From: Pseudomonadota bacterium
Lineage (GTDB): Bacteria > Pseudomonadota > Gammaproteobacteria > Steroidobacterales > Steroidobacteraceae
NCBI GenBank assembly: GCA_019352035.1
Contig: JABBNZ010000022.1
Span: 11,296 to 46,990, forward strand
Direction of reading: 5' to 3'
DNA: 35,695 bases
Shown here: piece after piece, positions 2,914 to 23,044 of the stretch
Numbering within the stretch: position 1 is the stretch's first letter
How the letters are laid out: every line of letters begins with the position of its first letter
The notes under the pieces: model-generated
Database searches by the model: none
Seen by the model: only the letters and a program-made list of their open reading frames with translations
What the model was told of the DNA's origin: nothing
Position numbers and translations under genes: made by a program

Positions 2914-2954
2914 GCCATTTTCCCTCATAGAACCTCAAAGGACACGAGCCCAAG

Positions 2955-3809: not shown

Positions 3810-3821
3810 GGGGAGCCAAGG

Positions 3822-4571: not shown

Positions 4572-4600
4572 CCGGGCTACCGGGCATGGGGGGGAACACG

Positions 4601-5512: not shown

Positions 5513-6603
5513 CTTCCAACCCACTGCTCGGTGTCTTCTTCCACTGGGTCGGGGGCCTCGCCTCCGCCAGCTTCTACGTGCCGTACCGCGCCGTGCGCGG
5601 CTGGTCGTGGGAGGTGTTCTGGCTGGTCGGCGGGATCTTCAGCTGGATCATCGCGCCCTGGCTCTTCGCGGGGCTGCACACCCGCGAGCTCCTGGCGGTG
5701 CTCGCGGCCACGCCGCCCCGCACCCTGGAGCTCTGTTATCTCTTCGGGTTCCTGTGGGGGTTCGGCGGCCTGACCTTCGGGCTCAGCATGCGCTATCTCG
5801 GGATCTCCCTCGGCACCGCGGTCGCTCTCGGGCTCACCGCGGCGTTCGGAACGCTGATCCCGCCGCTCGTCAACGGACAGCTCTTCGGGAGCCTCATCCA
5901 CACGACGGGCGGACTCGTGGTGCTGGGGGGCGTCGCGATCGCGCTCGGCGGCATCGCCATCGTCGGCAAGGCGGGGCACGACAAGGAGCTCGAGCAGGCG
6001 GCGCGGCAGACCGATCCGCCCGCGGGCGAGAGCGGCCAACCGCAGGCGAGGGATTTTCGCAAGGGGCTGGCGGTGGCGGTGTTCTCCGGCATCATGAGCA
6101 GCTGCTTCGCCTACGGGCTCGATGCCGGCGGCCCGATCCGTCACCTGACGCTCGCCCATGGCACGAGCACTCTGGCGCAGGGCCTGCCGGTGCTGGTCGT
6201 GGTGCTGCTCGGCGGGTTCACCACCAATGCCATCTGGTGCGCGTATCTCATCGTCAGGAACGCGAGCGCGCGCGAGCTCAAGGGCGAGGTGAAGGTCGCG
6301 GGCGCCGCTGCGCCGGTGCCGCTCACCCGCAATTATCTGCTCTGCGCGCTCGGCGGCACGGCCTGGTACCTGCAGTTCTTCTTCTACACCATGGGGGAAA
6401 GTCAGATGGGGCGGTACGCCTTCTCCAGTTGGACGCTGCACATGTCGAGCATCATCATCTTCGCGACCCTCTGGGGTCTGGCCCTGAAGGAGTGGAAGGG
6501 CGCGAGCGCCCGCAGCCTCGGTGTCATGACGCTCGGTCTCATCGTTCTCATCGGGGCGACCGTCGTCATCGGCTGGGGCAACTATCTCGTGGTGCGCGGA
6601 TGA
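5509..6603 (+). CDS. rhaT: L-rhamnose/proton symporter RhaT
   Basis: A 364-residue inner-membrane protein with about ten hydrophobic segments and clear RhaT signatures: FFHWVGGLASASFYVPYRAVRGWSWE near the N-terminus, FSWIIAPWL, FGFLWGFGGLTFGLSMRYLG and GTLIPPLVNG. E. coli RhaT (344 residues) has the same order. It imports L-rhamnose with protons. It overlaps the lactonase stop by ATGA and is itself overlapped by the next gene, so translation is probably coupled. A polar loop of about 30 residues (KELEQAARQTDPPAGESG) accounts for its slightly greater length. It supplies substrate to the enzymes upstream and takes up rhamnose released by the glycosidases of the locus. Confidence 0.94.
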   Translation: MTSNPLLGVFFHWVGGLASASFYVPYRAVRGWSWEVFWLVGGIFSWIIAPWLFAGLHTRELLAVLAATPPRTLELCYLFGFLWGFGGLTFGLSMRYLGISLGTAVALGLTAAFGTLIPPLVNGQLFGSLIHTTGGLVVLGGVAIALGGIAIVGKAGHDKELEQAARQTDPPAGESGQPQARDFRKGLAVAVFSGIMSSCFAYGLDAGGPIRHLTLAHGTSTLAQGLPVLVVVLLGGFTTNAIWCAYLIVRNASARELKGEVKVAGAAAPVPLTRNYLLCALGGTAWYLQFFFYTMGESQMGRYAFSSWTLHMSSIIIFATLWGLALKEWKGASARSLGVMTLGLIVLIGATVVIGWGNYLVVRG

Positions 6604-7849: not shown

Positions 7850-10800
7850 ATGGCGAAACTCGATCGTCGCCGCCTGCTCTTCGGCACCGGCATTCTCGCG
7901 GTCACCCCGCGGCTGCTGCGCACGGCGGATGCCGCGGCGGTGCCCGGTGCGGGGCAGCCGGGCGCAGCGGATGAGCAGGGCATCACGCCTTCGGACGAGG
8001 CGACGCTGCGCGTAGAGCGGCTCTGGGCCGAGCGCATCGAGTCTCCGTTGGGGCTGGAGGTCGGTAGACCGCAGCTCTCATGGTCAGTGGCCAGCGCCGG
8101 GCGCGGCGCCCTCCAGAGCGCGTATCGGGTCACTGCAGCCTCCACTCGCAAGCGTCTGGAGTCGGACGAAGCGGATCTCTGGGACAGCGGCCGCATCGCT
8201 TCCGACCGCTGTTTCGACGTCGAATACGACGGTAAGGTGCTGCATTCGGCTCAGCGTGTCTGGTGGCGCGTGCAGGTTTGGGATGGCGCCGGGCGAGCCT
8301 CCTCACCGAGCGTTGCAACCTGGTTCGAGATGGGCCTGCTCCAACCGTCGGACTGGCAGGCGCAGTGGCTCGACATCGAGGACCCCGAGGAGCGTGCCGA
8401 CCGCGCCGCGGGAATCCATTGGATCTGGAGTCAGGCGCACCCGCTCGCGGCGGGCCCGCAGCAGTTCCGATACCGGCTGGAGCTGCCGCAAGCATCGCGC
8501 GACGCCGAGCTCCTCCTCTGCGCCAAGGACGATTTCCTCGGCCTCTGGATCGATGGCAAGGCGGTGCCGCTGCCTGCCAAGACCTACTGGGGCACGATGA
8601 TGCGGTTCCCGATCCCTGCCGCGCCCGGCGCCCATGTCATTGCCGTGCAGGCGAAGGCGCAGAGCGGCGGCTTCATGCCCGGCACCGGCGGGGCGGTCGC
8701 CGCGCTGGTGAAGATCCGCGAGGCGGGCGGCGGCATCCGCAGGCTGACGACGGGCGCGGATTGGCGGGCCTCGAGCGATGCGCCCGCCGGATGGCACGAG
8801 TTGGAATACGACGACCGCTCCTGGGCGCCGGCGAGGGCAGCCCCGAGCGCCCCTCCCTGCGATCCGCGGCCGCCGCGCCCGGCGTTGTGGGCGCGCCGCG
8901 AGTTCAACGTGGTGAAGCCGCTCGCGCGAGCGAGGCTGTATGCGACCGCCCTCGGGGCTTACGAGGTCCACGTCAACGGCGAGCGCTTGGGAGACGCTCA
9001 TCTGGCGCCCGAGATCACCGTAGCGGCCGATCACGTTCTTTATCAGTGTCATGATGCGACGCCGCTACTGAAGCAAGGGCCCAACAGCCTCGCCGCACTC
9101 ATCGGCGATGGCTGGTACGCATCCGCATTCAGCTGGCTGAATGCGCGTTATGCCCTCGCCGACAGTCCGCGCCGCTTCCTCGCGCAGCTGGTATTGGACT
9201 ATGAGGACGGCAGCCGCGAGGTGATCGCGACGGATGGAAGCTGGCATCTGGGACCCTCGGCCGTGCGGTCGTCGGAGATCTACAACGGTGAGGACTACGA
9301 CGCTCGCCGCGAGGACTTCGGCGCCGCCCGGCAGGGCCCTGAAGCCGAAGCCAGCCTCTGGCGGACCGCCCGGATCGGCGATGCGCCCGGGATACGGCTC
9401 GTGGCGCAGGTCGGTCCGCCCATCCGGCCCATTCAGGTGCTCCCCGCCCGCCGGATGAGCCGGCCGCGGCCCGGGACGTTCGTTTTCGACTTCGGCCAGA
9501 ATTTCGCCGGCTGGTGCCGGCTGCGCGTCAAAGGACCGGCGGGGACCGTCGTGCGGCTGCGTCACGCGGAGATCCTCCACCCGAACGGCGAGATCAACAC
9601 GACCAACCTGCGCGACGCCCGCGCCACCGACACCTATACGCTGCGCGGGGATCCGGCGGGAGAGCTCTACGAGCCCCGGTTCACCTATCACGGATTCCGC
9701 TACGTGGAGCTCACGGGCTATCCGGGAAAGCCGGACCTCGCCACGATCGAGGGTATCGTGGTGCATACGGACGCGCCGGCGACCGGAACGCTGTCGGTGG
9801 AGAACCGGCTCGCGCAGCAGATCTGGCACAACGCGCTCTGGAGCCAGCGCTCCAACTTCTTCGGCGTGCCGACGGACTGCCCGCAGCGCGATGAGCGCAT
9901 GGGCTGGATGGGTGACATCCAGGTATTCCTCGATGCCGCGGCATTCAACATGGACGTCGACTCCTTCATCCGCCGCTTCATGGGCGAGGTGCGCGCCGGG
10001 CAGACGCCCGACGGGGCATTCCCCATCGTGACACCGCAACCGCGCTCCTTCCCGGAGCTCGTGACCGCGGGGTGGAGCGATGCCGGGGTCATCCTGCCCT
10101 GGACGCTCTATCGCCGCTACGGGGATACGGCGGTGATCGAGGAGAACTGGCAGCCGATGCAGCGCTGGCTCGACTACGTCGCCGACGTCAATCCGGACTA
10201 CATCTGGCGCCGCCGCCGGGGGCTCGATCTCGGAGACTGGCTGTCGGTCGATGCGAAGAAGCCGTCGGATGCGACCACGCCGAAGGCGCTCGTCGCGACC
10301 GCTTTCTGGGCCCGCTGCGCCAGCATGATGGCGCAGATGGCTACGGCGATCGGCCATGCGGACGATGCCGCCCGCTATGCGCGTATGCGCTCCAACATCG
10401 AGCAGGCATTCGCGCGGGAGTTCGTCCGGCCCGACGGCATGGTCGGCAACGACAGCCAGACCTCCTACTCGCTGGCGCTGCGCTTTGGGCTAGTGCCGGC
10501 ACCGCTGCGCGCCGCCGCCGGCGAGAGGCTCGCGGCCAACATCAAGGCGCGCGGCACGCTTCTCTCGACCGGCTTCCTCGGCACGCCGTATCTTCTTGAT
10601 GCGCTGGCGGACAGCGGCCACGAGCGGCTCGCCGTCTCGCTCCTGCTGCAGACGAAGTATCCCTCCTGGGGATTCATGATCAAGATGGGCGCGACCACCA
10701 TGTGGGAGCGCTGGAACGGCGGCATCGTGGATGCCTCCATGAATTCCTACAACCACTACGCCTACGGGGCGGTGGTCGGCTTCATGTACCGCCGCCTCGC

Positions 10801-11131
10801 CGGCATCGCCGAGGCGGCGCCGGGCTTTCGGCGCATCGCCGTCGATCCGATCTTCGATCCGCGCCTCGGGCGCGTGAGCGCCCGCTATGATTCCTGCCTC
10901 GGCCCGATCTCGACCGACGTGCGGGGCGATCGCCACGGCCTCTCGCGGCTCGGGCTCGAGCTGCCCGCCAACTCGACGGCGCAGGTGCGCCTGCCGGGAC
11001 GTCCTCACGACTGGATCGAGGGCGGCCGCCCGCTCGGGCATGCGGCGCAACGGCTCATCGGGAGCCAGGGCTCGCACTTCGTGGTCGAGCTCGGCTCGGG
11101 GCATTACGACTTGAGGAGGCAACGGACTTGA
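7850..11131 (+). CDS. Alpha-L-rhamnosidase, GH78, exported
   Basis: A 1,093-residue protein. The N-terminus (LDRRRLLFGTGILAV, then TADAAA) looks like a Tat leader. The order is then the usual GH78 one: an N-terminal beta-sandwich (VERLWAERIESPLGLEVGRPQLSW), the rhamnosidase N-domain (RREFNVVKPLARARLYATALGAYEVHVNG), a Bac_rhamnosid module, an alpha/alpha barrel and a C-terminal beta-sandwich. The catalytic signature CPQRDERMGWMGD starts at C677, with the probable general acid E682. The second acidic residue is E953 in TTMWERWNGG. It would release terminal alpha-L-rhamnose outside the cytoplasm for RhaT to import. It starts 11 bp after the esterase. Confidence 0.94.
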   Translation: MAKLDRRRLLFGTGILAVTPRLLRTADAAAVPGAGQPGAADEQGITPSDEATLRVERLWAERIESPLGLEVGRPQLSWSVASAGRGALQSAYRVTAASTRKRLESDEADLWDSGRIASDRCFDVEYDGKVLHSAQRVWWRVQVWDGAGRASSPSVATWFEMGLLQPSDWQAQWLDIEDPEERADRAAGIHWIWSQAHPLAAGPQQFRYRLELPQASRDAELLLCAKDDFLGLWIDGKAVPLPAKTYWGTMMRFPIPAAPGAHVIAVQAKAQSGGFMPGTGGAVAALVKIREAGGGIRRLTTGADWRASSDAPAGWHELEYDDRSWAPARAAPSAPPCDPRPPRPALWARREFNVVKPLARARLYATALGAYEVHVNGERLGDAHLAPEITVAADHVLYQCHDATPLLKQGPNSLAALIGDGWYASAFSWLNARYALADSPRRFLAQLVLDYEDGSREVIATDGSWHLGPSAVRSSEIYNGEDYDARREDFGAARQGPEAEASLWRTARIGDAPGIRLVAQVGPPIRPIQVLPARRMSRPRPGTFVFDFGQNFAGWCRLRVKGPAGTVVRLRHAEILHPNGEINTTNLRDARATDTYTLRGDPAGELYEPRFTYHGFRYVELTGYPGKPDLATIEGIVVHTDAPATGTLSVENRLAQQIWHNALWSQRSNFFGVPTDCPQRDERMGWMGDIQVFLDAAAFNMDVDSFIRRFMGEVRAGQTPDGAFPIVTPQPRSFPELVTAGWSDAGVILPWTLYRRYGDTAVIEENWQPMQRWLDYVADVNPDYIWRRRRGLDLGDWLSVDAKKPSDATTPKALVATAFWARCASMMAQMATAIGHADDAARYARMRSNIEQAFAREFVRPDGMVGNDSQTSYSLALRFGLVPAPLRAAAGERLAANIKARGTLLSTGFLGTPYLLDALADSGHERLAVSLLLQTKYPSWGFMIKMGATTMWERWNGGIVDASMNSYNHYAYGAVVGFMYRRLAGIAEAAPGFRRIAVDPIFDPRLGRVSARYDSCLGPISTDVRGDRHGLSRLGLELPANSTAQVRLPGRPHDWIEGGRPLGHAAQRLIGSQGSHFVVELGSGHYDLRRQRT

Positions 11132-11805
11132 ACCCCCGCAGAATCTGTCTCATCCATACCGCACCTCTCATGGTGCAGGTCTTCACGCCGCTCTGTCGCG
11201 ACAGGCTGCCGGACGTGAAGGTCACGCAGATCATCAACGAGTCGATGATCAAGGACACCATCGAGGCCGGACATGTCCGCCAGCCGACGATCGATGCCCT
11301 GCACACGTTCGCCGAGGCGTCCTTCAAGCTCGGAACGGAGCTCGTCATGGTGACCTGCTCCTCGATAGGACCGGCGGTGGACCTCATTCAGAGCCGGTTC
11401 AAGAAGCCGGTGCTGCGGGTCGATGAGCCGATGGCCGAGGCGGCCGTGGCGCGCGGCACTCGCATCGGGGTCGCGGCCACGCTGCGCACCACGCTCGAGC
11501 CCACCTCGGCGCTGCTGCTGCGCAAGGCGCAGGAGGCGGGCAAACAGGTGCAGCTCATCGAGTGCCTCTGCGAGGGCGCCTTCGATGCGGTCATCGCGGG
11601 TGATACCGAGACGCACGATGCGCTCGTCTCGCAAGCCATGGTGAACAAGCTGGCCGACGTGGATGTCATCGTGCTGGCGCAGGCCTCGATGGCGCGCGTG
11701 ACCGAGCGGCTGCCGCCCGGTGCGATCACGGCGCCGGTGCTCTCGAGCCCCGCGCTGGCGATGGATTACCTCAAGGAGCGGCTGGCGCGCCTGCGTCCCA
11801 ATTGA
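11128..11805 (+). CDS. Asp/Glu/hydantoin racemase-family protein
   Basis: A 225-residue protein that starts with TTG, overlapping the GH78 stop as TTGA. GAGGAGGC lies 7 bases upstream, a strong ribosome site that decides the start. The racemase fold is recognisable from VMVTCSSIGPAVD, with Cys77 as the N-terminal catalytic thiol, RIGVAATLRTTLEP, and VIVLAQASMARV. At the last segment the second catalytic Cys of two-base racemases is replaced (AQAS). Single-thiol members of this superfamily are not ordinary racemases; some act as isomerases or decarboxylases. Co-expression with a rhamnosidase suggests work on a sugar-acid product, but I cannot name the substrate. Confidence 0.8.
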   Translation: MNPRRICLIHTAPLMVQVFTPLCRDRLPDVKVTQIINESMIKDTIEAGHVRQPTIDALHTFAEASFKLGTELVMVTCSSIGPAVDLIQSRFKKPVLRVDEPMAEAAVARGTRIGVAATLRTTLEPTSALLLRKAQEAGKQVQLIECLCEGAFDAVIAGDTETHDALVSQAMVNKLADVDVIVLAQASMARVTERLPPGAITAPVLSSPALAMDYLKERLARLRPN

Positions 11806-11896: not shown

Positions 11897-11955
11897 CCGT
11901 CCTGTGCCTGTGATTCATGCTTCGAGATCGCGCACCGAGCGAGGGGGCAATTGGG

Positions 11956-13251
11956 ATGAGAAAGCGCTACGCCGTCGTCGGGCTGCTCGGGGTCGTCTCG
12001 GTCATCACCTTCCTCGACCGGATGGCCATCGCGGTGCTGGCGCCCTGGATCCGGCGCGATCTGGGCATGGGGGCGGCCGAGTGGGGCTGGGTGTTGAGCG
12101 CGTACGTCATCGCCTACGGCATCTTCGAGATTCCCTCAGGCGCCATGGGCGATCGCAACGGCCAGCGGCGCGAGCTCACGCGCATCGCGGCCTGGTGGTC
12201 GGCCTTCACCGCGCTCACCGGCGCGAGCTCGCGCTTCATCGAGCTCATCATCGTGCGCTTCTGCTTCGGCCTGGGCTCCGCGGGCGCGTATCCGAACGCC
12301 TCGGGCGTTCTCTGGCGCTGGCTGCCGGCGCGGGAGCGGGCGCGCGGCCAGGGGGTCGTCTGGGCCGCGAGCCGGCTCGGCGGGGCGCTTGCGCCGCTGC
12401 TCCTCGTGCCCCTCGCCATCGCCTTCGGCTGGCGCGCGGCGTTCTGGGTGCTGGCGGTCGTGGGTGTTCTCTGGGCGGCCGCCTGGTGGGCCTGGTATCA
12501 CGATGACCCCGCCGCGCATCCGGGCATCACCGCGGCGGAGCTGGAGGAGATAGGCGTGCGCGGCGGACGCGGTGCGCACGGCGGTGCGCCCTGGGGGCAG
12601 CTCCTCAAGCTTCGTCAGCTGTGGCTGATCGTGCTCGCCTACGGCTTCTATGGCTGCGGCAGCTGGTTCTATTTCAACTGGTATCCGAGCTGGCTGCTGC
12701 ATGCGGGCCACTTCTCGCTGCGTCAGATGGGACTCTATGCCTCCTTCCCGTTCCTCCTCGGCATCGGCGCCAATCTCATCGGCGGGACGCTCTGCGACCG
12801 GCTCGGCATGCGCTTTGGGATCAAGGCAGCCTCGCGCGCGATGACCTTCGGGTGCCTCGCCGTCGGCGCGGCGCTGCTGCTCTCGATGAGCCTCGTGCAG
12901 GGCCACACCGAGGTGATCGCGCTTTCGAGTATCGGCTTCGCGGTGATGGACCTCATGTTGCCGGCGGCGTGGGCCATGTGCATGAGCATCGGCGGTCCGC
13001 ACGGCGGCCTCGCCACGGGTGTCATGAACACCGCGGGCCAGGTGGGCGGAGTAGTGTGTACGCTCGTCTTCGGTTACGTCGTGAGCGCGACCGGCAACTA
13101 CGAGCTGCCGGTGCAAGTGGTGGCGGCGATGGTGCTCGTCGCCGCGGTGGTGTTCTTGCGGGTGGACTGTACGGCGGGCCTAGCGCCAGAGCCTGACACG
13201 CTCGAAGAAGTCATCGCCCCCCACCTGCCCGCCCTTCAGGACGAGCTGTAA
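11956..13251 (+). CDS. MFS transporter, anion:cation (ACS)-like sugar-acid permease
   Basis: A 431-residue protein with about twelve membrane segments. The N-terminus VVSVITFLDRMAIAVLAPWIRRDLG is typical of the ACS branch (hexuronate, galactonate, glucarate and related permeases). The loop motif reads GAMGDRNGQRR, and the segment RFCFGLGSAGAYPNASGVLWRW is also diagnostic. I chose the ATG at 11956, preceded by GAGGGGG at about 8 bases. An in-frame ATG at 11917 lacks a site. The 3' end overlaps the 3' end of the convergent kinase gene by 72 bp. By position it may import the acid sugar handled by the kinase and RuBisCO-like protein. The substrate is inferred. Confidence 0.87.
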   Translation: MRKRYAVVGLLGVVSVITFLDRMAIAVLAPWIRRDLGMGAAEWGWVLSAYVIAYGIFEIPSGAMGDRNGQRRELTRIAAWWSAFTALTGASSRFIELIIVRFCFGLGSAGAYPNASGVLWRWLPARERARGQGVVWAASRLGGALAPLLLVPLAIAFGWRAAFWVLAVVGVLWAAAWWAWYHDDPAAHPGITAAELEEIGVRGGRGAHGGAPWGQLLKLRQLWLIVLAYGFYGCGSWFYFNWYPSWLLHAGHFSLRQMGLYASFPFLLGIGANLIGGTLCDRLGMRFGIKAASRAMTFGCLAVGAALLLSMSLVQGHTEVIALSSIGFAVMDLMLPAAWAMCMSIGGPHGGLATGVMNTAGQVGGVVCTLVFGYVVSATGNYELPVQVVAAMVLVAAVVFLRVDCTAGLAPEPDTLEEVIAPHLPALQDEL

Positions 13252-14499
13252 ACCGTCGATCTTCGCCGCCTGCGCATGCGCGCGGCAGAGCGGTGCGCCC
13301 GGCTCGAGGCTCGCCTCCCACGTGAGGGCGTGCGCTCCGAGCTGCATCACGGCATGCGTCGAGGTGTCCCCTCCCGCGAGCACGACCCGCGGCACCGGCG
13401 CCTGCCTCAGGATGCGCCGGAGCAACGCGCCTGCGCGGCGCCCGAGCGCCTCGCCGCAGGGGTGTGCGGCGGGAGCGAGAGGTCCGAGCGCGCTGTAAAG
13501 AATGGTGCTCCGTCCCGCGCGCAGATGACCCACTGCCTCCGCGACGGCATTCTCGGCCGCCGCAGCGCCGCCGTTCTCATCGAGCAGCTGAGTCACATTG
13601 AGCGCAACACCTTGATAACCGTTGGCGAGCGCTTTGCGGATCTGACGCTCGGTCACGGGTGAGCAGCTGCCGCTCAATACGAGAAGTGTCTCGACGGAGT
13701 CAGCCTGCGAGGCGGCGGGCTCGCCCGCAATGAGGCCGGCTCGGCGCCATGCCGACAGCAGTGCGTAAGTCAGCCCGGAGCTGCCGGCGCAGAAAAGAGG
13801 AGGCTCGGCGTCCGTGCCTCGCTCCGCGCACTCCCAGAGGATCCGCCCCGTCTCCCGCAGCTCCGCTTCGCTCACGCCGTCGAACAGCACTGCCGCATCC
13901 CCTCGCGAGAGGCAGTCCGACAGCGCCTCACGCGCCCGGCCGCGGGCGAAGTCGGTCAGGTCCACGAGGCCGATGCCCAGCGCGGTCTGTGCGGCCAGAT
14001 GACGGCGCAGATCCGCCTCGTACATGGGGGTCACCGGATGCGCGCGCATGGTCGGATGCCGGTCGATGCGGTGAATCGTCTCGCCGGCGGCGGCGAAGAG
14101 GTGGCCGAAGGCGAGGTAACGGCGCAGATGCGGCGCCGCGACCACGATGGGAATGAAGGGCGGCGAGAGCGTCTCGCGGCCGATCTCGAGCGCGCGCCCG
14201 ATCGAGCCGATCTGCGGCGAGCTGTCGAAGGTCGAGCAGGTCTTGTAGTGGATGACGGGGCATCGCAGCGCGCCGAGACGGCGGAACACGGCCGGCAGAT
14301 GCTGGCTCATCCAGTCGGACGCGCGGCTGCGGCTCTCGCCGGCGATGCCGAAGGCCTGACAGTCGCCGAACTCCCCCCAGCGCTCTTCAGCGGGCAGGCC
14401 GATGAAAAGCACGGTCCGTATGCCAGCGAGGGCCAGCGCCTCGAGCACGTCGGTCGAGCCCGTGAAATCATCCCCGTAGTAGCCGTAGAGCGGACGCAC
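13180..14499 (-). CDS. DUF1537 four-carbon acid-sugar kinase family (3-oxo-isoapionate kinase candidate, OiaK-like)
   Basis: A 439-residue protein with a GTG start. The N-terminal domain begins with YGYYGDDFTGSTDVLEAL, the DUF1537 substrate-domain signature, and IHYKTCSTFDSSPQIGSIG is the second one. The C-terminal nucleotide-binding domain has VLSGSCSPVTERQI and the glycine-rich VVLAGGDTSTHAV. The family phosphorylates threonate, erythronate and other acid sugars. It starts 11 bp after the RuBisCO-like gene, on the same strand. In characterised D-apiose pathways this pair phosphorylates 3-oxo-isoapionate and passes the 4-phosphate to the RLP. That specific role is inferred from the pairing. 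The last 24 codons overlap the MFS gene on the other strand. Confidence 0.88.
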   Translation of the reverse strand: MRPLYGYYGDDFTGSTDVLEALALAGIRTVLFIGLPAEERWGEFGDCQAFGIAGESRSRASDWMSQHLPAVFRRLGALRCPVIHYKTCSTFDSSPQIGSIGRALEIGRETLSPPFIPIVVAAPHLRRYLAFGHLFAAAGETIHRIDRHPTMRAHPVTPMYEADLRRHLAAQTALGIGLVDLTDFARGRAREALSDCLSRGDAAVLFDGVSEAELRETGRILWECAERGTDAEPPLFCAGSSGLTYALLSAWRRAGLIAGEPAASQADSVETLLVLSGSCSPVTERQIRKALANGYQGVALNVTQLLDENGGAAAAENAVAEAVGHLRAGRSTILYSALGPLAPAAHPCGEALGRRAGALLRRILRQAPVPRVVLAGGDTSTHAVMQLGAHALTWEASLEPGAPLCRAHAQAAKIDGLQLVLKGGQVGGDDFFERVRLWR

Positions 14500-14510
14500 T
14501 GTCTCGGCTT

Positions 14511-15800
14511 TCAGCGGCCGAACGCCGCCAGGGTTGCGGCGAGCTCGCGGTGGGTGCGGGCGTAATCGGCGAGCGGGATGCCGGATACGGCGGCCTCCCA
14601 GCCCTGGTGCAGACTCCTCACGCCCGCGGCGACGCCGCCGGGATGGCCCATGATGCTGCCGCCGCAGGCGTGAATGAGATCGACGGAGCCCAGCGCCCGG
14701 TAGGTGTCCGGTGCCTGCAGCGCCGACTGTCCCGAGGAGAAGACCGGCATGACCTCACACCCAGGGTGGGGCTGCGGGAACATGGGCGTCAGGCATTCGC
14801 GGGCCGAGGCGATCACCGACTCGTTGCTCTCGCAGAACTTGTTGTCGAGTCCATTGACATGGACGTGGTCGATGCCCGCCAGCCGCCAGAGCTTCTGCCA
14901 GGCGACGAAGCTCATGCCGATCGCCGGCGAGCGCCCGAGCAGTCCCCAGCCGTTGCGGTGGCCGTGGATCGCCACCTGGCACTGCGCCCGCAGCGCCGCG
15001 AGCGCCGGCAGGCCGATGCTGTTCAGGCTGACCATGACGCAGGTGTTGCCCGCGGCCACGACGAGGTCATGCCGGCGCAGCATCTCGTCGATGTCACCTG
15101 TGATGTTGACGGCGTACATCACCCGTTTGCCGGTCCTGTCGGCGTGCGCGTCGAGCACCCGCATCACCGCGCTCAGCCGCTCCTCGAACGGACAATGCGG
15201 CCCGTCCGCCTGCAGCTCATCGTCCTTGACGAAGTCGATGCCCGCGGCGGCGATCGCGGCGACCCGCTCAGCGGTGGCAGCGGGCGAGAGCCCGACGCTC
15301 GGCTTGATGATCGTCCCGATGACGGGTCTGCCGTGCACGCCGGTCAGGGCTCGCGTACCGGCGATGCCGAACCGCGGACCGCGGTAGCGCCCGAGGAATT
15401 GCGGCGGCAGCGTCAGATCGAGCAGCCGCATGCCGGAGAAGGGCTTGAGCTCCCACAGGTTGCCGGCGACCGTGGCGAGGAGGTTGGGCAGCGAGGGCCC
15501 GAAATTGTGCAGCGGCCAGGAAAGCGTCACCTCCGCCGTCCGCCATCGCGCTGGGCCCGACTGCGGTGCCGAGGCGCCGGGGAGGGAGGGCGCCGCGGCT
15601 TCGCCGAGCTCCACGAGCGACTCGATGCGCGCGCCGCAGTGCTCGCGCAGCTCGTCGGTCTCGCCCGCCACCCGCACGAAGGTGCCGGTCGACTGCTCGC
15701 CGGCCATGATCGCCGCCGCCGCCTCGAGCGGGCGGGCGCTCTCGATCCAGTATCGTGCCGTGACGCGCGCGGGTGTCTCAGGCGCGTTTGAAGTAGACAT
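14511..15800 (-). CDS. RuBisCO-like protein (form IV; OiaX-type 3-oxo-isoapionate-4-phosphate transcarboxylase/hydrolase candidate)
   Basis: A 429-residue RuBisCO large-subunit homologue. The usual TIM-barrel landmarks are present: the Asn of VAGNLWELK, K166 (RuBisCO K175) in TIIKPSVG, K192-D193-D194-E195 (K201 to E204, the carbamylated Lys and metal ligands), H281 (H294), H314 (H327), K321 (loop 6 K334), S356 (S379) and the phosphate loop GGSIMGHPGG. The clear change is K177, which is Ser168. It lies between the GH127 gene (23-bp overlap) and the DUF1537 kinase. Known kinase-linked RLPs cleave 3-oxo-isoapionate 4-phosphate to 3-phosphoglycerate and glycolate. True carbon fixation is unlikely: no small subunit or phosphoribulokinase is nearby. 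Confidence 0.92.
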   Translation of the reverse strand: MSTSNAPETPARVTARYWIESARPLEAAAAIMAGEQSTGTFVRVAGETDELREHCGARIESLVELGEAAAPSLPGASAPQSGPARWRTAEVTLSWPLHNFGPSLPNLLATVAGNLWELKPFSGMRLLDLTLPPQFLGRYRGPRFGIAGTRALTGVHGRPVIGTIIKPSVGLSPAATAERVAAIAAAGIDFVKDDELQADGPHCPFEERLSAVMRVLDAHADRTGKRVMYAVNITGDIDEMLRRHDLVVAAGNTCVMVSLNSIGLPALAALRAQCQVAIHGHRNGWGLLGRSPAIGMSFVAWQKLWRLAGIDHVHVNGLDNKFCESNESVIASARECLTPMFPQPHPGCEVMPVFSSGQSALQAPDTYRALGSVDLIHACGGSIMGHPGGVAAGVRSLHQGWEAAVSGIPLADYARTHRELAATLAAFGR

Positions 15801-17619
15801 CGTACGACTCGTTCTCCACGGTATGGAACGGGACGAAAACCCTCTCCTGCCGCTGCGTGCGGCCGGTCTGCACGTAGCTCTGCCTCGAGCCGGCCACCGG
15901 CTCGAGGCGGCCGCTCCCGAGCGCAGCGAGCGGCACGCCCGGCGCGGCGGGCTGCGCCTCGCTGAAGTCGAGCGCGCAGTACAGCAGCGGGCCGCGCATC
16001 AGCGCGACCGTGTCCCGATGCGCGGGGTCGACGGGCTCCTGGCGGAAGGGCTGCGGCAATCGCAGCTCGATGCGATCGTCGCGCTTCCACGTGCGCCGCA
16101 GCGCCGCGAACGTGCCGGGTGCGGCGCTCACCGAGGCGCGCCCCCCGTTCACTCGAATCTCCGGCTCCTCCTGCAACCATCCCGGAATCCGGATCATCAG
16201 CGTGAACGCCGCCGGCGCGTCCGCTTCGACGTGCAACGTCACCAGCTCATCCGCGGGGTACTCGGTCTCCTGCGCAAGGCTCACCCGGCGTCCTCCGACG
16301 AGCCATCTCGCTCGGGAGGGCGTGAAGATGTTGACGTAGATCGTCCCTGGCGCATGGAAATAAATGTTGCGGACGTAGTCGGCAACGCCCTGCACGAGCG
16401 TGCCCGAGCAACAAGGCCACTTCGCAGGGTAGAAGACCTTGGTCGCGCCGGGGTTGTAGCTCGAGTAGTACGGCGAGTTGCCGTCAGAGTCCGGCCGCTT
16501 GACCGCCAGCAGCCCGTTGTACATGACTCTCTCCAGCCCATCCCCATAGCGCGCGTCCGCGGTGAAGCGCATGAGGTAGCGCGCGAGCCTCATCGAGGCG
16601 TAGGTGCCGCACGGCGTCTCGAAGTGGCTGGCGGTGGTGGTCAGGCTGTCCACGAGCTGCGAGGTGTCCGGCTTCACCAGCAGCTCGTTCGGGCCCCAGC
16701 CGCCGGAGGCATAGCTTTGCATCCCGAGGAACTTCCAGCCGTTCGCGGCGGCCGCCCGATAGCGCGGATCGCCGAGCTCGACATAGGCGCGGGCCGCCGA
16801 GCTCAACGCCATCACGTGACTGTAGGCGTGCCGCCCGGCCAACACGTCCTCGCCGCGCGCGAGCGGATCGAAGTAGGGGGCGTCGAGGAGGTAGTGGACG
16901 GCCAACTTCCGCAAGCGGGCATCGCCCGTCAGATGCGCCGCCGCGAAGAAGTTCTCCGGCAGGATGTAGGTCTCGTCGTAAGGCGGATTCCTGACGCCGA
17001 TCCGGTCGCGGCTCACCGGGGAGATGTAGGGGAGGGCGCCGTGAACCACGCTCGGGATCAGGGAGCGGGCGCGCTCGACGCCGCTCAGGGCGTAGGCGTC
17101 GAGAAGTCCGATGATGTGCTTGTCGAGGACGTACGCGGGCCACACCTTCTGCGCGCCAGGCCCGGCGTACGGCACCGGATTGGCCGCGAGGGCGGCGGCG
17201 AAGCCGTCGATGAGCTGACTCACCTTCACGTGGCAGGCGGGATCGCCCGTGGTGCGTCCGAGGCGCGCGATGCCGGAGATGTATTGGCCGAGGGAGTGGC
17301 CCGGAATGAAGCCGTCCTCCCCATACCAGCCGCCCATGTCGAGGCCGGGCGCCGCGAGCCCGGCGTGCTGGCGGTAGGGCTTCAGGAGCCGGTCGTTGTC
17401 GAGCCCGAGGTAGTGCGCGTGGATGAAGTCGTACTGCGCCTTGAGCGGGCCGCCGGTGAGCTCGACGGCGCCATAGGGGAAATCGTGCAGCCGCCCGGGC
17501 GCAGCCCGCACCCCCGCGCCTTCTGCCCACGCAGGCGCCAAAACGGGCGCCATGGCGCCGGCGGCTGCCGCCGATGCGACCGTGCGCAGGAACGTCCGCC
17601 GGGAGGTCCGTCGAATCAT
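15778..17619 (-). CDS. GH127-type (DUF1680) glycosidase, probable beta-L-arabinofuranosidase, Tat-exported
   Basis: A 613-residue protein. The leader TSRRTFLRTVASAAAAGAMA is a classical twin-arginine signal. The alpha/alpha barrel has GGWYGEDGFIPGHSLGQY, AYVLDKHIIGLLDAY and ASHFETPCGTYASMRLARYLMR. Family zinc and nucleophile residues are visible: E334 and C337 in ETPC, and C403-C404 in KWPCCSG. C403 corresponds to the nucleophilic Cys of HypBA1. GH127 and its relatives remove beta-L-arabinofuranose, but DUF1680 members are diverse, so linkage specificity is open. The start at 17619 has AGGAGGC at 9 bases and overlaps the upstream stop as ATGA. The frame stays open further upstream, but that part lies inside the previous gene. 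Confidence 0.88.
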   Translation of the reverse strand: MIRRTSRRTFLRTVASAAAAGAMAPVLAPAWAEGAGVRAAPGRLHDFPYGAVELTGGPLKAQYDFIHAHYLGLDNDRLLKPYRQHAGLAAPGLDMGGWYGEDGFIPGHSLGQYISGIARLGRTTGDPACHVKVSQLIDGFAAALAANPVPYAGPGAQKVWPAYVLDKHIIGLLDAYALSGVERARSLIPSVVHGALPYISPVSRDRIGVRNPPYDETYILPENFFAAAHLTGDARLRKLAVHYLLDAPYFDPLARGEDVLAGRHAYSHVMALSSAARAYVELGDPRYRAAAANGWKFLGMQSYASGGWGPNELLVKPDTSQLVDSLTTTASHFETPCGTYASMRLARYLMRFTADARYGDGLERVMYNGLLAVKRPDSDGNSPYYSSYNPGATKVFYPAKWPCCSGTLVQGVADYVRNIYFHAPGTIYVNIFTPSRARWLVGGRRVSLAQETEYPADELVTLHVEADAPAAFTLMIRIPGWLQEEPEIRVNGGRASVSAAPGTFAALRRTWKRDDRIELRLPQPFRQEPVDPAHRDTVALMRGPLLYCALDFSEAQPAAPGVPLAALGSGRLEPVAGSRQSYVQTGRTQRQERVFVPFHTVENESYDVYFKRA

Positions 17620-18770
17620 TTGAGTAGTGCCTCCTGATATAGACGATTGATGGCCGCGATGGTGCTCCCGGCCGGCTCGCCGGACGCGAGCGCCGCGCGC
17701 AGCCGCTCGGAAGCGGCCTGTTGGAAGGGCATGTACCCCGCGTGCCGCGGGCGAACCCACGCGCCCTCGAGTGTCGCGCGCGTGTTGCGATAGAAATTGA
17801 GCGAGGTCGCGTTGGCGGCGGCGTCGTCCCAGGCAGCCGAGCTCGCAGGCTGGCCGCCGCCCGTCACGTAGGGCCCGCACTGCGCTTCGGGGCCGGCGAC
17901 CCAACGCGCGAACTGGATCGCCGCCTCGCGGTGCGGCGAGCGCGCCGAGACGGCGATGCCGGTCCCGCCGAGCGCCGAGCCGCGCGGCGCGCCGCCCGGG
18001 GCGAGCGGAATGAGATTGCCGAAGGCGATCGGCGCCGGCAGCGCCGGCGACTGGCTGCGCGGCCGCGAGTAGCTGACATAGCCATAGACGAGCGGCGAGC
18101 AGGCGCAGGCGGACCGCGGCTCGGACATCCTCTGTAGCACCGCGATGGGGTCCATGGTGAGACAGGCCGGGTCGATGAGCGCGGCGAGCTCGCGCAGCAA
18201 CTCGTAAGCGAGGCCGGCGCCCGAGCGGTCGAGCAGATCGGGTCCCTCGATGTGCCCGGGGCTTCCCGCCAGTCCGCTCAGCGTGAAGAGGGACATGAGG
18301 TTGTGCGGCGGCCGCAGCGGGCAGAGCACTTTGCCCGCGGATGCGAGCTCCAGCATCGCCTTCCAGTCGGCGGGAGGGGTGCCTAACAGGTCCGGGCGCC
18401 ACGCCTGCACCTGCGCGGCCGCATCGATCGGCAATGCCCAGAGGCTCCCTTCCCAGAGGTAGCTCGCGAGCGAGGCTCCGACGTACTCCTTCCCCAGCAG
18501 GGCCACATCCGCAGCGCTCTGGAGCGGCGCGAGGCAGCGCTCGCGGGTGATCTGACCCACGTGCGGATGATCGATCACGATGAGATCGTAACGCTCGGCG
18601 AGCTGCGCCACCGGAAACGACTCGAAGTCCTGCAGCGAGCGGCGCTCCCACTCGATGCGCACGCCGGTGCGCGCCTGCCAGAGGGCGGCGCAGGCCGCGA
18701 GCGGATCGTAGCCCCGGGGATGGTCCCAGGTCATGCCGCGCAGCATCGCCGTCTCAGGTCGGGTTGACAT
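17616..18770 (-). CDS. Solute-binding-protein-like (family 1) protein without a signal peptide
   Basis: A protein of up to 384 residues with the fold and motifs of sugar-binding lipoproteins: YDLIVIDHPHVGQI early, LWALPIDAAAQVQAWRPDLL at the hinge, GGTGIAVSARSPHREAAIQFARWV, and a C-terminal INRLYQEALL helix. No hydrophobic leader, lipobox or Tat motif precedes the domain, because MTWDHPRGYDPL is almost at the N-terminus. No ABC permease or ATPase is in this operon. It may therefore be a cytosolic binding or sensing protein. The start is uncertain: the ATG at 18770 has no ribosome site, and the ATG at 18746 is an alternative. First gene of the operon with GH127, RLP and kinase. Confidence 0.8.
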   Translation of the reverse strand: MSTRPETAMLRGMTWDHPRGYDPLAACAALWQARTGVRIEWERRSLQDFESFPVAQLAERYDLIVIDHPHVGQITRERCLAPLQSAADVALLGKEYVGASLASYLWEGSLWALPIDAAAQVQAWRPDLLGTPPADWKAMLELASAGKVLCPLRPPHNLMSLFTLSGLAGSPGHIEGPDLLDRSGAGLAYELLRELAALIDPACLTMDPIAVLQRMSEPRSACACSPLVYGYVSYSRPRSQSPALPAPIAFGNLIPLAPGGAPRGSALGGTGIAVSARSPHREAAIQFARWVAGPEAQCGPYVTGGGQPASSAAWDDAAANATSLNFYRNTRATLEGAWVRPRHAGYMPFQQAASERLRAALASGEPAGSTIAAINRLYQEALLK

Positions 18771-18822: not shown

Positions 18823-20028
18823 TTGACGGTAGCGCACGCAGGCCAGCAGCGATCCGGGGAAGGGGAGCGTCCGCTCCAGGGAGTGCTGGTCCTCGATTTC
18901 AGCCAATTCCTGGCAGGTCCTTCCTGTTGCCTGCGGCTCGCCGATCTCGGCGCTGAGGTCATCAAGGTGGAGCGGCCGCGGGGCGGGGATCTCGCGCGCC
19001 GGCTGCAGCTCGCCGACCAGACCTTCGGCGATGACAGCACCCTCTTTCACACCATCAACCGCAACAAGAAGAGCTTCGCGGCGGACCTGAAGGATCCGCG
19101 CGATCTCGAGCGGGTGAAGGCGCTCATCGCGCGCGCCGATGTGATGGTGCACAACTTCCGCCCGGGCGTGATGGATCGGCTCGGTCTCGATTTCGACACC
19201 GTCGCCGCGTTGAATCCCGGTCTGATCTACGCGGCCATCACCGGCTACGGCGACCGCGGGCCGTGGCGGGAGAAGCCGGGACAGGACCTGCTGGTGCAGG
19301 CCATGTCCGGGCTCGCCTGGCTCTCGGGCGATGCCGGCCAGGGTCCGGTGCCCGTCGGCCTCTCGGTGGCGGACCTCATGGCCGGGGCGCAATTGTGCCA
19401 GGGCGTGCTGGCGCTTCTGGTGCGGCGGGGCCGCACCGGACGGGGCGGCCGCGTCGATGTCAGCCTCCTCGAGTCCGCCATCGACATGCAGTTCGAGCAG
19501 CTCACCGCATTCCTCAACGGCGATGGCCGCCAGCCGCCGCGCGATGCGGTCAACAATGCGAGCATCTACCTGGGCGCGCCCTACGGCATCTACAAGACCG
19601 CCGACGGTTATCTCGCAGTCGCCATGACACCGGTCGGGGCCCTCGCCGAGCTCATCGGCTGCAAGCCGCTCGCGGCCTACGCCGATCCGGCGACGTGGTT
19701 CGGGGAGCGCGCGCGCATCAAGTCGCTCCTCGCCGCCCACCTGGCGCAGCGCCCGACGGCGCATTGGCTCTCGATCCTCGAGCCGGCCGACATCTGGTGC
19801 GCACCGGTGCTCGACTGGACGCAGCTCGTGCGTCACGAGGGCTTCGCGGCGCTCGAGCTCACGCAGCAGATCGAGAACCCGCGGCATGGCCGCATGCGCA
19901 CCACCCGCTGTCCGCTGCGGGTCGACGGGGAGGTGCTGACCTCGCCGCGGGGCGCGCCTTCCCTTGGCGCCGACAACGAGGAGGTGCTGCGGCGCCTGGA
20001 AACCGGCTCCCGCGAGGGACGGTCATGA
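18823..20028 (+). CDS. Family III CoA-transferase (CaiB/BaiF)
   Basis: A 401-residue protein, starting at a TTG with GAGGAG 5 bases upstream. Signatures are [63 protein letters not shown], and [22 protein letters not shown] with the catalytic Asp155 that forms the aspartyl-CoA thioester. The family moves CoA between carboxylic acids such as carnitine, oxalate, succinate and hydroxy acids. The next gene, a MaoC hydratase, overlaps its stop and would act on the resulting acyl-CoA. The substrate is unknown. Its place in a sugar-acid locus suggests activation of a sugar-derived or other organic acid. Confidence 0.9.
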
Positions 20029-20477
20029 TCGTCGAGCAATTCTTCGAGGACTACGAGATCGGCTTCACCCGCCGCACGTTCGGGCGCACGGTGACCGAGG
20101 CCGACATCGTGACCCACGCCGGTCAGACGGGCGACTTCTTCCCCCATCACATGGACGCCGAGTGGTGCGCCCAGCAGGATTTCAAGCGGCGGATCGCTCA
20201 CGGCACCCTGATTCTCAGCATGGGAATCGGGATGACGGCGGGCACCATCAACCCGCGGTCGATGTCCTACGGCTATGACCGCGTGCGCTTCATCCGTCCC
20301 GTATTCATCGGCGATACGATCACCGTCACCGCGCGCATCACGGAGCGCCGGGACCATCCCAAGCGCAAGAGCCATGGCGTGGTGGTGGAGGCGGTGCAGA
20401 TCGCCAATCAGCATGGAGAGGTGGTGCTAGCCTGCGAGCACCTGTATCTCGTGGAGCGCCGCGGAGCCGCTCCGTGA
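20025..20477 (+). CDS. MaoC-family hot-dog dehydratase / (R)-enoyl-CoA hydratase
   Basis: A 150-residue single hot-dog domain. The ATG overlaps the CoA-transferase stop (ATGA). The catalytic region reads [21 protein letters not shown], followed by [15 protein letters not shown], so the Asp and His of the hydratase site are present. [19 protein letters not shown] is the usual middle strand pair. The frame stays open upstream but only as a shadow of the CoA-transferase gene. With that partner it probably hydrates or dehydrates a CoA thioester in the cytoplasm, as in mesaconyl- or beta-methylmalyl-CoA hydratases. The actual substrate is unknown. Confidence 0.88.
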
Positions 20478-20496: not shown

Positions 20497-21510
20497 ATGA
20501 ACGCGCGGGCTCCTGCGGCGGCGGCATTCCTGGCGCTCGGCGCGATGCTGGGGCCGCTCCCTGCCGCCGCGGCCGCGACGCCGGCGCGCGAGGGGACCTC
20601 GCCGCGCACCACTCGGGCCGCACCGCTGCGGTTCGGCCTCTCGAGCGCCGGCCTGAGCTACCCTTTCGCCGCGGCGATCGCCCAGGGCTTCGAGCATCAG
20701 GCGGCCCGCGACGGCGTCGATGCGATCGTGCTCGATGCGCAGGAGCGGGTGCAGAAGCAGGCCAACGACCTCGAGGACCTGGTGTCGGAGCGCGTCAATG
20801 GCATCGTGCTGATGCCGCTCGACTCCGTCATCGCCCAGAGCTGGGTCAATCGCGCGACCGCGGCCGGCATCCCCGTGGTGGCGGTCGGCTCGCAGGTGGG
20901 CGATCCGGCCACGCGGCCGCTGCGCGAGGTATACCCCAGGCTCACCGCGCTCGTGACCCAGGACGAAGTGGCCGCCGGCCGGGAGGCCGGGCGGCTCGCG
21001 CTGAAGCTGCTGCCGCGCAACCGGGTCGCGCGCATCGCGATCATCCAGGGCGCGCCCGGCTTCCCCGAGGTCCTGCAGCGGGAGGCGGGATTCAAGCAGG
21101 CGCTCGATGCGGCGCACGTGCGCTACCGCATTGTGGCCTCGCAGCCGGGCAACTGGTCGGCGGACGGTGCGGATGCCGCCTGCCAGAACATCCTCGCGGC
21201 GCATCCTGACATCGATCTTTTCTTCAACGAGGCCGATGACATGGCGGTCGGATGCGCCCATGCCGTGCGCGCGGCCGGAGCGCACGCGCGCCTCGTGGGC
21301 ATCGGCGGCTCGCGGCTCGCCATGGTGTCGCTTCGGGCCGGGAGGATCGACGGCACGGTCTGCTACAAGCCCCGCGAGCTCGGCGAGCTCGCCTTCGATG
21401 CGCTCTACGGCGAGGTGACGGGCCGCAAGCCCCTGCATGCGGCCTTCATCACCTACCGGACGCCGGGCATCACGCGCGCGAATGTCAGCGCCTGTGCGCC
21501 GCAGTGGTGA
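20497..21510 (+). CDS. Sugar ABC transporter substrate-binding protein (ribose type, Peripla_BP_4)
   Basis: A 337-residue periplasmic protein. It has a hydrophobic leader ending around PAAAAATPA. The mature domain starts with LRFGLSSAGLSYPFAAAIAQGFE and has ERVNGIVLMPLDS, AGIPVVAVGSQVGD, ARIAIIQGAPGFPEV and LFFNEADDMAVGCAHAVRAAG. This is the ribose/galactose-type periplasmic binding fold, which usually binds free monosaccharides. It is followed by the matching ATPase and permease, so it is a normal importer component, unlike the two leaderless binding-like proteins nearby. The ligand is not readable from the sequence. D-apiose, bound by members of this family, and L-fucose or L-rhamnose are candidates from context. 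Confidence 0.9.
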   Translation: MNARAPAAAAFLALGAMLGPLPAAAAATPAREGTSPRTTRAAPLRFGLSSAGLSYPFAAAIAQGFEHQAARDGVDAIVLDAQERVQKQANDLEDLVSERVNGIVLMPLDSVIAQSWVNRATAAGIPVVAVGSQVGDPATRPLREVYPRLTALVTQDEVAAGREAGRLALKLLPRNRVARIAIIQGAPGFPEVLQREAGFKQALDAAHVRYRIVASQPGNWSADGADAACQNILAAHPDIDLFFNEADDMAVGCAHAVRAAGAHARLVGIGGSRLAMVSLRAGRIDGTVCYKPRELGELAFDALYGEVTGRKPLHAAFITYRTPGITRANVSACAPQW

Positions 21511-21517
21511 GGTCCTC

Positions 21518-23044
21518 GTGAGCGCGGACACCCCTCTGCTCGAGCTCCAGGGCGTGGCCAAGGTCTACCCGAACGGGACCGCCGCGCTCGCGGGCGTGGA
21601 CCTCACGGTCCGGGCCGCCGCCGTGCACGGCCTGCTCGGCGCCAACGGCGCCGGCAAATCGACACTCATCCGCATCCTCTCGGGCGCGGCGCGGGCGAGC
21701 GGCGGCCGCATCCTCTGGCGCGGTGAGGCCGTGAGCTGGAGCCGGCCGGCGCAGGCGCGCGCGGCCGGCATCGCGACCCTCCATCAGCAGATTCCGCTGG
21801 TGGGGACGCTGTCGGTGTTGGAGAACGTCTTTCTCGCCGAGCGCGGCGGGCGGCGGCGCGGCCGGCCGCTCGCGGCGCGGCTGCGCCGGCTCATGGCATC
21901 GATCGGGTACGAGCTCGACATCGATGCGCCCGTCGGCACGCTGCCGATCGGGGCGCGGCAGATGGTCGGCATCCTGCAGGCGCTCGCCGCCGATGCCGCC
22001 CTCATCATCATGGATGAGCCGACCGCCTCGCTCGCGGCCGCGGAGCGGCGGATCGTGCACGGGGCCATCCGGCGCCTCGCCGCGGAGGGCAGGGCGGTGC
22101 TGCTCGTGAGCCATTTTCTCGATGAGGTGCTGGCGTTGACCCGGGAGGTCACCGTGCTGCGCGACGGCGCCGCCGTGTTGACTTCGGTCACCGCGGAGGT
22201 GGATGAGGCCGGCCTGGCCGCGGCGATCGTGGGGCGCCCCATGCGCCCACCGCGCTCACGGCCGGCGGCGGACGCGGCGAGCGGCGGGATCGTGGCGCAG
22301 ATCGTCGGACTCGAGAGCCCGGGACGGCTCGCGCCCTGCACGTTCGAAGTCCGTGCCGGCGAAGTGCTCGGCATCGCGGGCTTCCTCGGCTCCGGACGCA
22401 GCGAGCTGCTGCATGCGATCTTCGGCGCGGATCGCGCCGCCCGCGGCGAGGTGCGGCTCTGCGGCACGCCATTGGCGCGCTCGCCCCGGGCCGCGGTGGC
22501 CGCGGGAGTCGGCCTCGTGCCGGAGGACCGCCAGGCGCAGGGACTCGTGCCGCAGTTTCCGCTGTGGCAGAACCTGACGCTCGCGCACCTCGACCACTTC
22601 GCGCGCGGGAGGCTCTTCGCGCGCGCCGGCGCCGAGCGCGCCGCGGCCGAGGAGGCGATCGGGCGGCTCGGCATCAAGGCGAACGGCCCGGACACGCCGG
22701 TCACCGAGCTCTCAGGCGGCAACGCGCAGAAGGTCAGCCTCGGCCGCTGGCTCTGCGGCCCGGTCCGCCTCCTGCTCCTCGATGAGCCGACCGCCGGGGT
22801 CGACGTCGGGGCCAAGGCCGAGATCCTCGGGATCGTGCGCGAGCTCGCGGCCGCCGGTCTCGCGGTGGTGTTGGTCACATCCGAGCTGACGGAGCTCACG
22901 GCGGCCGCCGACCGCATCCTCGTCATGCGCGAGGGCGCCATCGTGGCGCAGCGCGCGGCGGCGCAAACGAACGAGGAGGAGCTGGTGTTGCTTGCTTCCG
23001 GGGCGGCCCAAGGCCGCATCAGGACCGGCGAGGCGGCCCGATGA
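21518..23044 (+). CDS. Sugar ABC transporter ATP-binding protein (RbsA/MglA type, two nucleotide domains)
   Basis: A 508-residue duplicated ATPase. The first domain has Walker A GANGAGKST, a degenerate signature LPIGARQMVGI and Walker B LIIMDEPTASL. The second has a degenerate Walker A GFLGSGRSELL, the signature LSGGNAQKVSL and Walker B LLLLDEPTAGVD. Alternation of one good and one degenerate site is normal in RbsA proteins. I chose the GTG at 21518, which has GAGG just upstream. An in-frame ATG at 21482 would overlap the binding-protein gene. It energises import with the neighbouring permease, whose ATG overlaps this stop codon. Confidence 0.93.
   Translation: MSADTPLLELQGVAKVYPNGTAALAGVDLTVRAAAVHGLLGANGAGKSTLIRILSGAARASGGRILWRGEAVSWSRPAQARAAGIATLHQQIPLVGTLSVLENVFLAERGGRRRGRPLAARLRRLMASIGYELDIDAPVGTLPIGARQMVGILQALAADAALIIMDEPTASLAAAERRIVHGAIRRLAAEGRAVLLVSHFLDEVLALTREVTVLRDGAAVLTSVTAEVDEAGLAAAIVGRPMRPPRSRPAADAASGGIVAQIVGLESPGRLAPCTFEVRAGEVLGIAGFLGSGRSELLHAIFGADRAARGEVRLCGTPLARSPRAAVAAGVGLVPEDRQAQGLVPQFPLWQNLTLAHLDHFARGRLFARAGAERAAAEEAIGRLGIKANGPDTPVTELSGGNAQKVSLGRWLCGPVRLLLLDEPTAGVDVGAKAEILGIVRELAAAGLAVVLVTSELTELTAAADRILVMREGAIVAQRAAAQTNEEELVLLASGAAQGRIRTGEAAR

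Follow-up and report, generated by a model that had tools for sequence, protein, structure and literature searches.

We analysed a 35,695-nucleotide stretch (the window) of contig JABBNZ010000022.1, from a gammaproteobacterium of the family Steroidobacteraceae, that encodes a RuBisCO-like protein (RLP) and, next to it, a DUF1537 kinase. We propose that these two proteins act with a nearby Asp/Glu-racemase-family protein (AGR) to break down a branched acid sugar by a route without an oxidation step. The best candidate substrate is L-aceric acid (3-C-carboxy-5-deoxy-L-xylose) from rhamnogalacturonan II, to our knowledge the only place where this sugar is found; we put the probability of this reading at roughly 0.55. 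At about even odds, the genes represent the first catabolic pathway for L-aceric acid, in which a racemase-fold sugar isomerase and a RuBisCO-superfamily enzyme moving CO2 within a sugar acid would together give 3-phosphoglycerate and L-lactate with no redox step. A first-pass annotation of the window had called the pair a probable D-apiose branch and had named service to another branched acid sugar as its alternative; the evidence points to that alternative.

The route that we infer would begin with release of aceric acid by an exported GH127-superfamily enzyme and its import by an anion carrier, in the window one of the major facilitator superfamily (MFS). AGR would isomerise the aldose at C1/C2 to the ketose HOOC-C(OH)(CHOH-CH3)-CO-CH2OH, which would be the methyl homologue of 3-oxo-isoapionate, and the kinase would phosphorylate the CH2OH next to the ketone. 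The RLP would then decarboxylate this product, transfer the CO2 onto the adjacent carbon atom and hydrolyse to 3-phosphoglycerate and L-lactate, an OiaT-type reaction. Its enediol would be that of 5-deoxypentulose 1-phosphate, that is, of ribulose 1,5-bisphosphate minus the 5-phosphate.

The gene arrangement described by the first-pass annotation was borne out. The open reading frames of RLP and kinase lie 11 bp apart on the - strand and carry the expected Pfam domains (RuBisCO_large, 232 bits, and RuBisCO_large_N, 40 bits, in the RLP; SBD_N, 174 bits, and NBD_C, 114 bits, both over their cut-offs and forming the two DUF1537 halves, in the kinase). A GH127-family glycosidase gene, sharing 23 bp with the start of the RLP gene, completes a three-gene set on this strand; the N-terminus of its product, RRTSRRTFL, was judged by eye to be a twin-arginine-type leader. 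The pair does lie between rhamnose genes, read by eye, and a sugar ABC (ATP-binding cassette) importer with a Peripla_BP_4 binding protein. AGR and the MFS carrier face the three-gene set from the + strand, and the 3' ends of the carrier and kinase genes overlap by 72 bp.

Gene content of related loci and the AGR protein

Relatives were drawn from 277 contig stretches that matched a pattern, 226 of which encode a relative; the best 80 of the 226 were kept and, with the window, made up 81 loci. Locus genes were called by a codon-composition script, clustered and searched with cluster-built profiles, and their starts are approximate. The pairing of RLP and kinase is not chance, because in 61 of the 80 relatives the two genes are direct same-strand neighbours, RLP first and kinase second (the kinase lies elsewhere in the locus in 8 and was not seen in 9, and the contig ends in 2). 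A PF16896 protein, presumably the oxidoisomerase ApnO, is encoded in 34 of the 81 loci, AGR in 24 including the window, neither in 23 and both in none. When 36 genomes were searched for AGR, it was matched in 15 of the 16 of AGR/GH127 type, once as a 41-residue fragment at a contig end and once at only 27% identity. A single kinase-RLP core seems to be entered alternatively through AGR or through ApnO, and the two can also be combined.

Glycosidase genes follow the same division. GH127-family genes are present in 10 of the 24 AGR loci and in none of the 34 PF16896 loci, and eight Bacillota AGR loci carry, upstream of AGR, a gene of a family without a Pfam match (c19). Counted together as the GH127 superfamily, these genes occur in 18/24 AGR loci versus 0/34 PF16896 loci (Fisher's test 3e-10, a value that ignores kinship). 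Five of the 23 neither-type loci also hold GH127 genes, and AGR was matched elsewhere in four of those five genomes, once only as the fragment. Apiosidase genes are distributed differently (0/24 AGR, 5/34 PF16896 and 2/23 neither-type loci; Fisher's test for AGR versus PF16896, 0.07).

The apparent membership of c19 in the GH127 superfamily is based on a profile match to the GH146 structure 5opj (first PDB match, E 0.0019, with the Cys-Cys pair aligned), on this Cys-Cys motif and on Foldseek with a poor AlphaFold model (mean pLDDT 52), where ranks 1-14 are GH127/146 entries, BT1003 included, with TM values of only 0.25-0.35. The c19 profile matched the window GH127 set weakly (probability 41) and, compared with aceric acid hydrolase-type sequences, gave a negative result (probability 3.6). 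These proteins (L062:7556-9283 and seven relatives) may constitute a new family of glycosidases. Several Acidobacteriota loci have, upstream of GH127-RLP, a gene that fuses an IclR-type helix-turn-helix to Peripla_BP_4 (L008:2702-3934).

AGR has the Pfam domain Asp_Glu_race and the fold of Asp/Glu/hydantoin racemases: its model (mean pLDDT 93.9) matched glutamate, aspartate and hydantoin racemases in Foldseek at a TM of about 0.6-0.75. Unlike these enzymes, which use two catalytic Cys, it keeps only the first (Cys70) and has Gln178 at the second position in 21 of 21 sequences, in which Asp92, His156 and Asp157 are also invariant, and its genes often lie among sugar genes. A 1,2 proton shift would be compatible with a single acid/base located on one face. 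That AGR is a plain amino acid racemase is unlikely from the genomic context. In locus L101, the neighbours of AGR are genes for a DUF1537 kinase and an OtnC-like protein, a setting in which a ketol isomerase step is expected. On a Deinococcus plasmid (L111), a relative of AGR adjoins a class II aldolase gene among glycoside hydrolase genes, another place where an isomerase step is expected.

AGR adjoins an MFS carrier in the window and in most Acidobacteriota relatives. In Cytophagales, Opitutaceae and Planctomycetales it adjoins a carrier of another cluster, c90, whose counterpart in Rufibacter is annotated as a member of the bile acid:sodium symporter family, and in Bacillota loci binding-protein and permease-like genes, read by eye, take the place of either carrier. 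A Croceibacterium plasmid holds the GH127-RLP-kinase set and the AGR-MFS pair apart on one replicon. Carriers of these kinds suit an organic acid (anion) as substrate, although they do not prove it.

Family and reaction of the RLP and the case for D-apiose

The likeness to OiaX and OiaK that the first-pass annotation had noted was upheld, in that these are the nearest curated families. Among NCBIfam models the RLP scored highest with OiaX (NF042437, 443.4 bits), ahead of RuBisCO form III (250 bits) and of the methionine-salvage enolases; MtnW belongs to the same RuBisCO superfamily, but the window RLP reaches only 180 and 136 bits with the MtnW-type models against cut-offs of 409 and 514. The kinase scored highest with OiaK (NF042436, 467.2 bits), ahead of 3-oxo-tetronate kinase (199 bits) and D-threonate kinase (72 bits). 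All these scores are under the models' own cut-offs, which for OiaX and OiaK are 700 each. Window RLP and kinase are 45% and 44% identical to an annotated OiaX and an annotated OiaK, respectively, and the RLP is 62% identical to that of a Xanthobacteraceae metagenome-assembled genome (L028), 49% in alignment to the nearest solved RLP (3nwr, listed in the PDB table only as 'A rubisco-like protein') and about 29% to form I and form II RuBisCO.

OiaK, OiaX and OiaT of D-apiose catabolism were reportedly described by Carter et al. in 2018. The first-pass annotation had credited OiaX with formation of 3-phosphoglycerate and glycolate, a mix-up: NCBIfam names OiaX a decarboxylase, and that reaction belongs to OiaT. 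The operon around one annotated oiaX gene (L093) encodes a protein of PF16896 type, whose annotation reads phosphogluconate dehydrogenase C-terminal domain, an adjacent four-carbon acid sugar kinase, triose-phosphate isomerase- and RpiB-type proteins, an ABC importer, a Gfo/Idh protein and a 614-aa hypothetical protein; by elimination, we take the PF16896-type protein to be ApnO and the 614-aa protein to be the lactonase ApnL. According to a review, the reactions catalysed by the RLPs of A. radiobacter and X. autotrophicus are decarboxylation and transcarboxylation/hydrolysis of 3-oxo-isoapionate-4-phosphate (PMC6302742), and an apiose cluster is described in another paper as containing lactonase, apiose dehydrogenase, oxidoisomerase, kinase and decarboxylase (PMC11747546).

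The window pair thus shares both protein families, and their adjacency, with an annotated OiaX operon, and differs in that both proteins fall under the equivalog cut-offs. It could serve D-apiose if kinase and RLP acted on 3-oxo-isoapionate and the dehydrogenase, lactonase and oxidoisomerase lay elsewhere in the genome or were replaced by unrelated enzymes. Such a route would agree with the nearest curated families, with the presence of PF16896 (34/81) and apiosidase (7/81) genes in related loci, with the joint occurrence of AGR and PF16896 in the L096 operon and with apiose being, like aceric acid, a sugar of rhamnogalacturonan II. Searches of the window genome (G000, 95% complete) speak against it. 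No PF16896 gene was found there, whereas the same search, over 48 hand-chosen genomes of the 80 relatives, succeeded in 20 of 20 PF16896-type genomes and in 4 of 28 of AGR/GH127 type. No apiosidase (PF13204) was found in the window genome by a search that matched 2 of 14 control genomes. An ApnL-like search of 32 genomes, with a query that we presume to be ApnL, gave no match in the window genome, one of 15 of AGR/GH127 type, and matches in 11 of 17 PF16896-type genomes. The window Gfo/Idh gene, tried as an apiose dehydrogenase, was rejected at only 24% identity to that of an OiaX operon. Apiosidase is absent from all 24 AGR loci, and the window, unlike a D-apiose system, has AGR and an MFS carrier near the pair. 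What remains of the D-apiose assignment is the OiaK/OiaX-like family membership; apiose itself is unlikely to be the substrate in the window, and we regard the scattered-gene version of the route as improbable.

Active-site residues (in spinach numbering, with roles that we take from RuBisCO) bear on the type of reaction. Like form I-III RuBisCO, the window RLP has E60, N123, K175, K201, D203, E204, H294, R295, H327, K334 and S379; it differs in having Ser for K177, Trp for H298, Phe for W66 and Ser for one phosphate-site Gly. Of the eleven shared residues, the first ten are kept in 93 of 93 non-OiaX rows of the family, and S379 in 90. The four annotated OiaX rows all have D, G and Q at positions 60, 123 and 327 and G or C at 379, a pattern from which the window RLP, with E, N and H at the first three, departs by retaining RuBisCO residues that these four rows have lost. 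We read the family's machinery as still able to carboxylate, as a transcarboxylase/hydrolase reaction needs, and not as that of a plain decarboxylase. This reading of the reaction draws on the residues and on the assumption that OiaT, like the window RLP, keeps those for carboxylation.

In the RLP tree (quick search, SH-aLRT support) the window falls in a set of 17 Acidobacteriota and Gammaproteobacteria rows (12 AGR, 4 neither, 1 PF16896; support 96). Other AGR-type rows form a Paenibacillaceae set (7 rows, all AGR; support 99) and most of a Cytophagales and Opitutaceae set (6 rows, 5 AGR plus L079; support 99), or stand as L021/L096 and as the scattered L048 and L073. In the same tree the annotated OiaX rows, four in number, group together (support 100) on a long branch. 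Their presence there and the top score of the OiaX model would fit an RLP that is a plain OiaX-like decarboxylase, its deoxypentulose phosphate product then being cleaved by an aldolase. The retention of E60, N123, H327 and S379, altered in four of four OiaX rows, makes this doubtful, and visual inspection showed no aldolase gene next to the pair within the window, a genome-wide aldolase search not having been made; we consider a plain decarboxylase unlikely.

Aceric acid hydrolases and the choice of substrate

Aceric acid as the proposed substrate is supported by the company of aceric acid hydrolases. The NCBI equivalog for this enzyme (NF049879, cut-off 950) passed its cut-off in 4 of 48 genomes, all four of which have AGR. 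In one Bacteroidota locus (L079) 17 bp separate the end of the hydrolase gene from the RLP that follows, in another (L074) the gene lies 3 kb upstream of an RLP-kinase-AGR-carrier group, and in L076 it shares the contig at a distance of about 17 kb; the fourth genome (L078) has a PF16896-type locus plus an AGR-carrier pair (L097). Among 194 genomes of L074's order, 13 pass the hydrolase cut-off and 5 have this RLP; both genomes whose RLP is of AGR type have the hydrolase, and the three whose RLP is of PF16896 type lack it. BT1003, the aceric acid hydrolase, is a GH127 enzyme, and the window operon has a GH127-superfamily gene. The product of the window gene has the GH127 catalytic and middle domains (Pfam) and the Zn-site Glu and three Cys, conserved in 5 of 5 aligned sequences, residues whose roles are given in PMC10850190.

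Two further substrates have to be weighed. AGR might make 3-oxo-isoapionate from carboxylated apiose (a 3-C-carboxy-tetrose) in place of ApnO, apiose being served via a different oxidation. The chemistry of AGR would be identical, and AGR does replace PF16896 in 24 of 81 loci, but this would require an unknown oxidase of the apiose branch in a genome without an apiosidase match, and it leaves unexplained why an aceric acid hydrolase that passes its cut-off is encoded next to an RLP; we hold it to be very unlikely. The substrate might instead be some other branched or four-carbon sugar acid, such as one from tetronate metabolism or a pectin acid as yet unknown. Several acid sugars are substrates of DUF1537 kinases, and a relative of AGR lies beside the OtnC-like gene of L101; against this stand the low scores of the tetronate and threonate kinase models (199 and 72 bits) and the links to the GH127 superfamily and to aceric acid hydrolase, and we give such a substrate a low probability.

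A number of observations weigh against L-aceric acid as the substrate. The window GH127 protein is a distant relative of BT1003, scoring 98.7 bits against the cut-off of 950, and its best PDB match is 5opj, a GH146 entry. Six of the 24 AGR loci show no GH127-superfamily gene, and a kinship-corrected test of the GH127 link was not significant: it could use four independent pairs on supported RLP-tree branches, too few for a sign test to reach 0.05, of which 2.2 on average went in the same direction and none in the opposite. Eleven of the 13 hydrolase genomes of L074's order have no RLP; therefore, release of aceric acid does not imply the RLP route. Strict exclusivity of AGR and PF16896, which held in the 81 loci, was dropped because one operon (L096, 8355-12290) encodes RLP, kinase, PF16896 protein and AGR. 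Of 20 PF16896-type genomes, 5 encode a relative of AGR with 40-50% identity, the L096 genome among them. Relatives of AGR adjoin other genes as well, some in settings that could not be read, and ApnL-like matches appeared in 3 of 15 AGR/GH127-type genomes. The RLP sequence cannot separate the two substrates, because no column except 38 (T/S) splits AGR from PF16896 loci; AGR and PF16896 rows are also mixed in the kinase tree (FastTree). Finally, a phosphate-binding Gly that is kept in 26 of 27 AGR rows is replaced by Ser (S382) in the window RLP.

Window genes, their surroundings and significance

Table 1. Coordinates of the proposed pathway genes and of context genes in the window
Feature	Position	Strand	Evidence
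RLP, OiaX/OiaT-like, proposed transcarboxylase/hydrolase	14511-15800	-	429 aa, ATG start; Pfam, NCBIfam, tree, active-site residues
DUF1537 kinase, OiaK-like	13180-14499	-	439 aa, GTG start; Pfam, NCBIfam, 44% to an annotated OiaK
GH127-superfamily glycosidase, twin-arginine-type leader, Zn-site Glu and three Cys	15778 to about 17619	-	Pfam, alignment, PDB search
AGR of the Asp/Glu racemase family, proposed aldose-ketose isomerase, keeping one catalytic Cys of two	11128-11805	+	Pfam, alignment, structure model
MFS carrier adjoining AGR	11917-13251	+	Nearest NCBIfam model D-galactonate transporter, score under its cut-off
GH78 alpha-L-rhamnosidase, context	7850-11131	+	Pfam
Rhamnose genes (dehydratase-, hydrolase-, SDR-, amidohydrolase-, RhaT-like), context	1711-6603	+	Read by eye
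Sugar ABC importer, context	20497-24123	+	Binding protein Peripla_BP_4 (Pfam); other two genes by eye

The assembly that holds the window has 217 contigs and totals 4.5 Mb, at 95% completeness and 2.6% contamination. The part of the contig upstream of the window (L134) has genes for GH106, two GH42 and alpha-L-fucosidase and one gene with weak GH43/GH32 matches. If the window's rhamnose genes have been read correctly, their route likewise ends in lactate.

Within the window, 17616-18770 (-), 18823-20477 (+) and 24943-26145 (+) include genes for two solute-binding-family proteins, by eye without a visible signal peptide and without permeases of their own, beside CoA-transferase III and MaoC-type genes. 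This set recurs on the Croceibacterium plasmid (NZ_CP156083) and in part in L005 and L006. A gene at 28685-34156 (+) encodes a protein of 1823 aa that looks, by eye, like a hybrid histidine kinase; it seems to have several receiver domains and a long series of HAMP-like repeats in tandem. A second RuBisCO match in the window genome was rejected as another RLP of this kind, being close to form I RbcL; this gene (G000:C184, L135:7567-14437) is followed by RbcS-, CbbX-, PRK- and aldolase-like genes, read by eye, and from this set the organism may be a facultative autotroph.

In the literature covered, which left most subscription papers outside its scope, no pathway for aceric acid breakdown was found. 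A hydrolase that frees aceric acid is already known. If the proposal is true, it would supply a substrate for part of an RLP subfamily that spans many phyla, add a reaction that closely resembles RuBisCO carboxylation, and give the racemase fold a role in sugar isomerisation.

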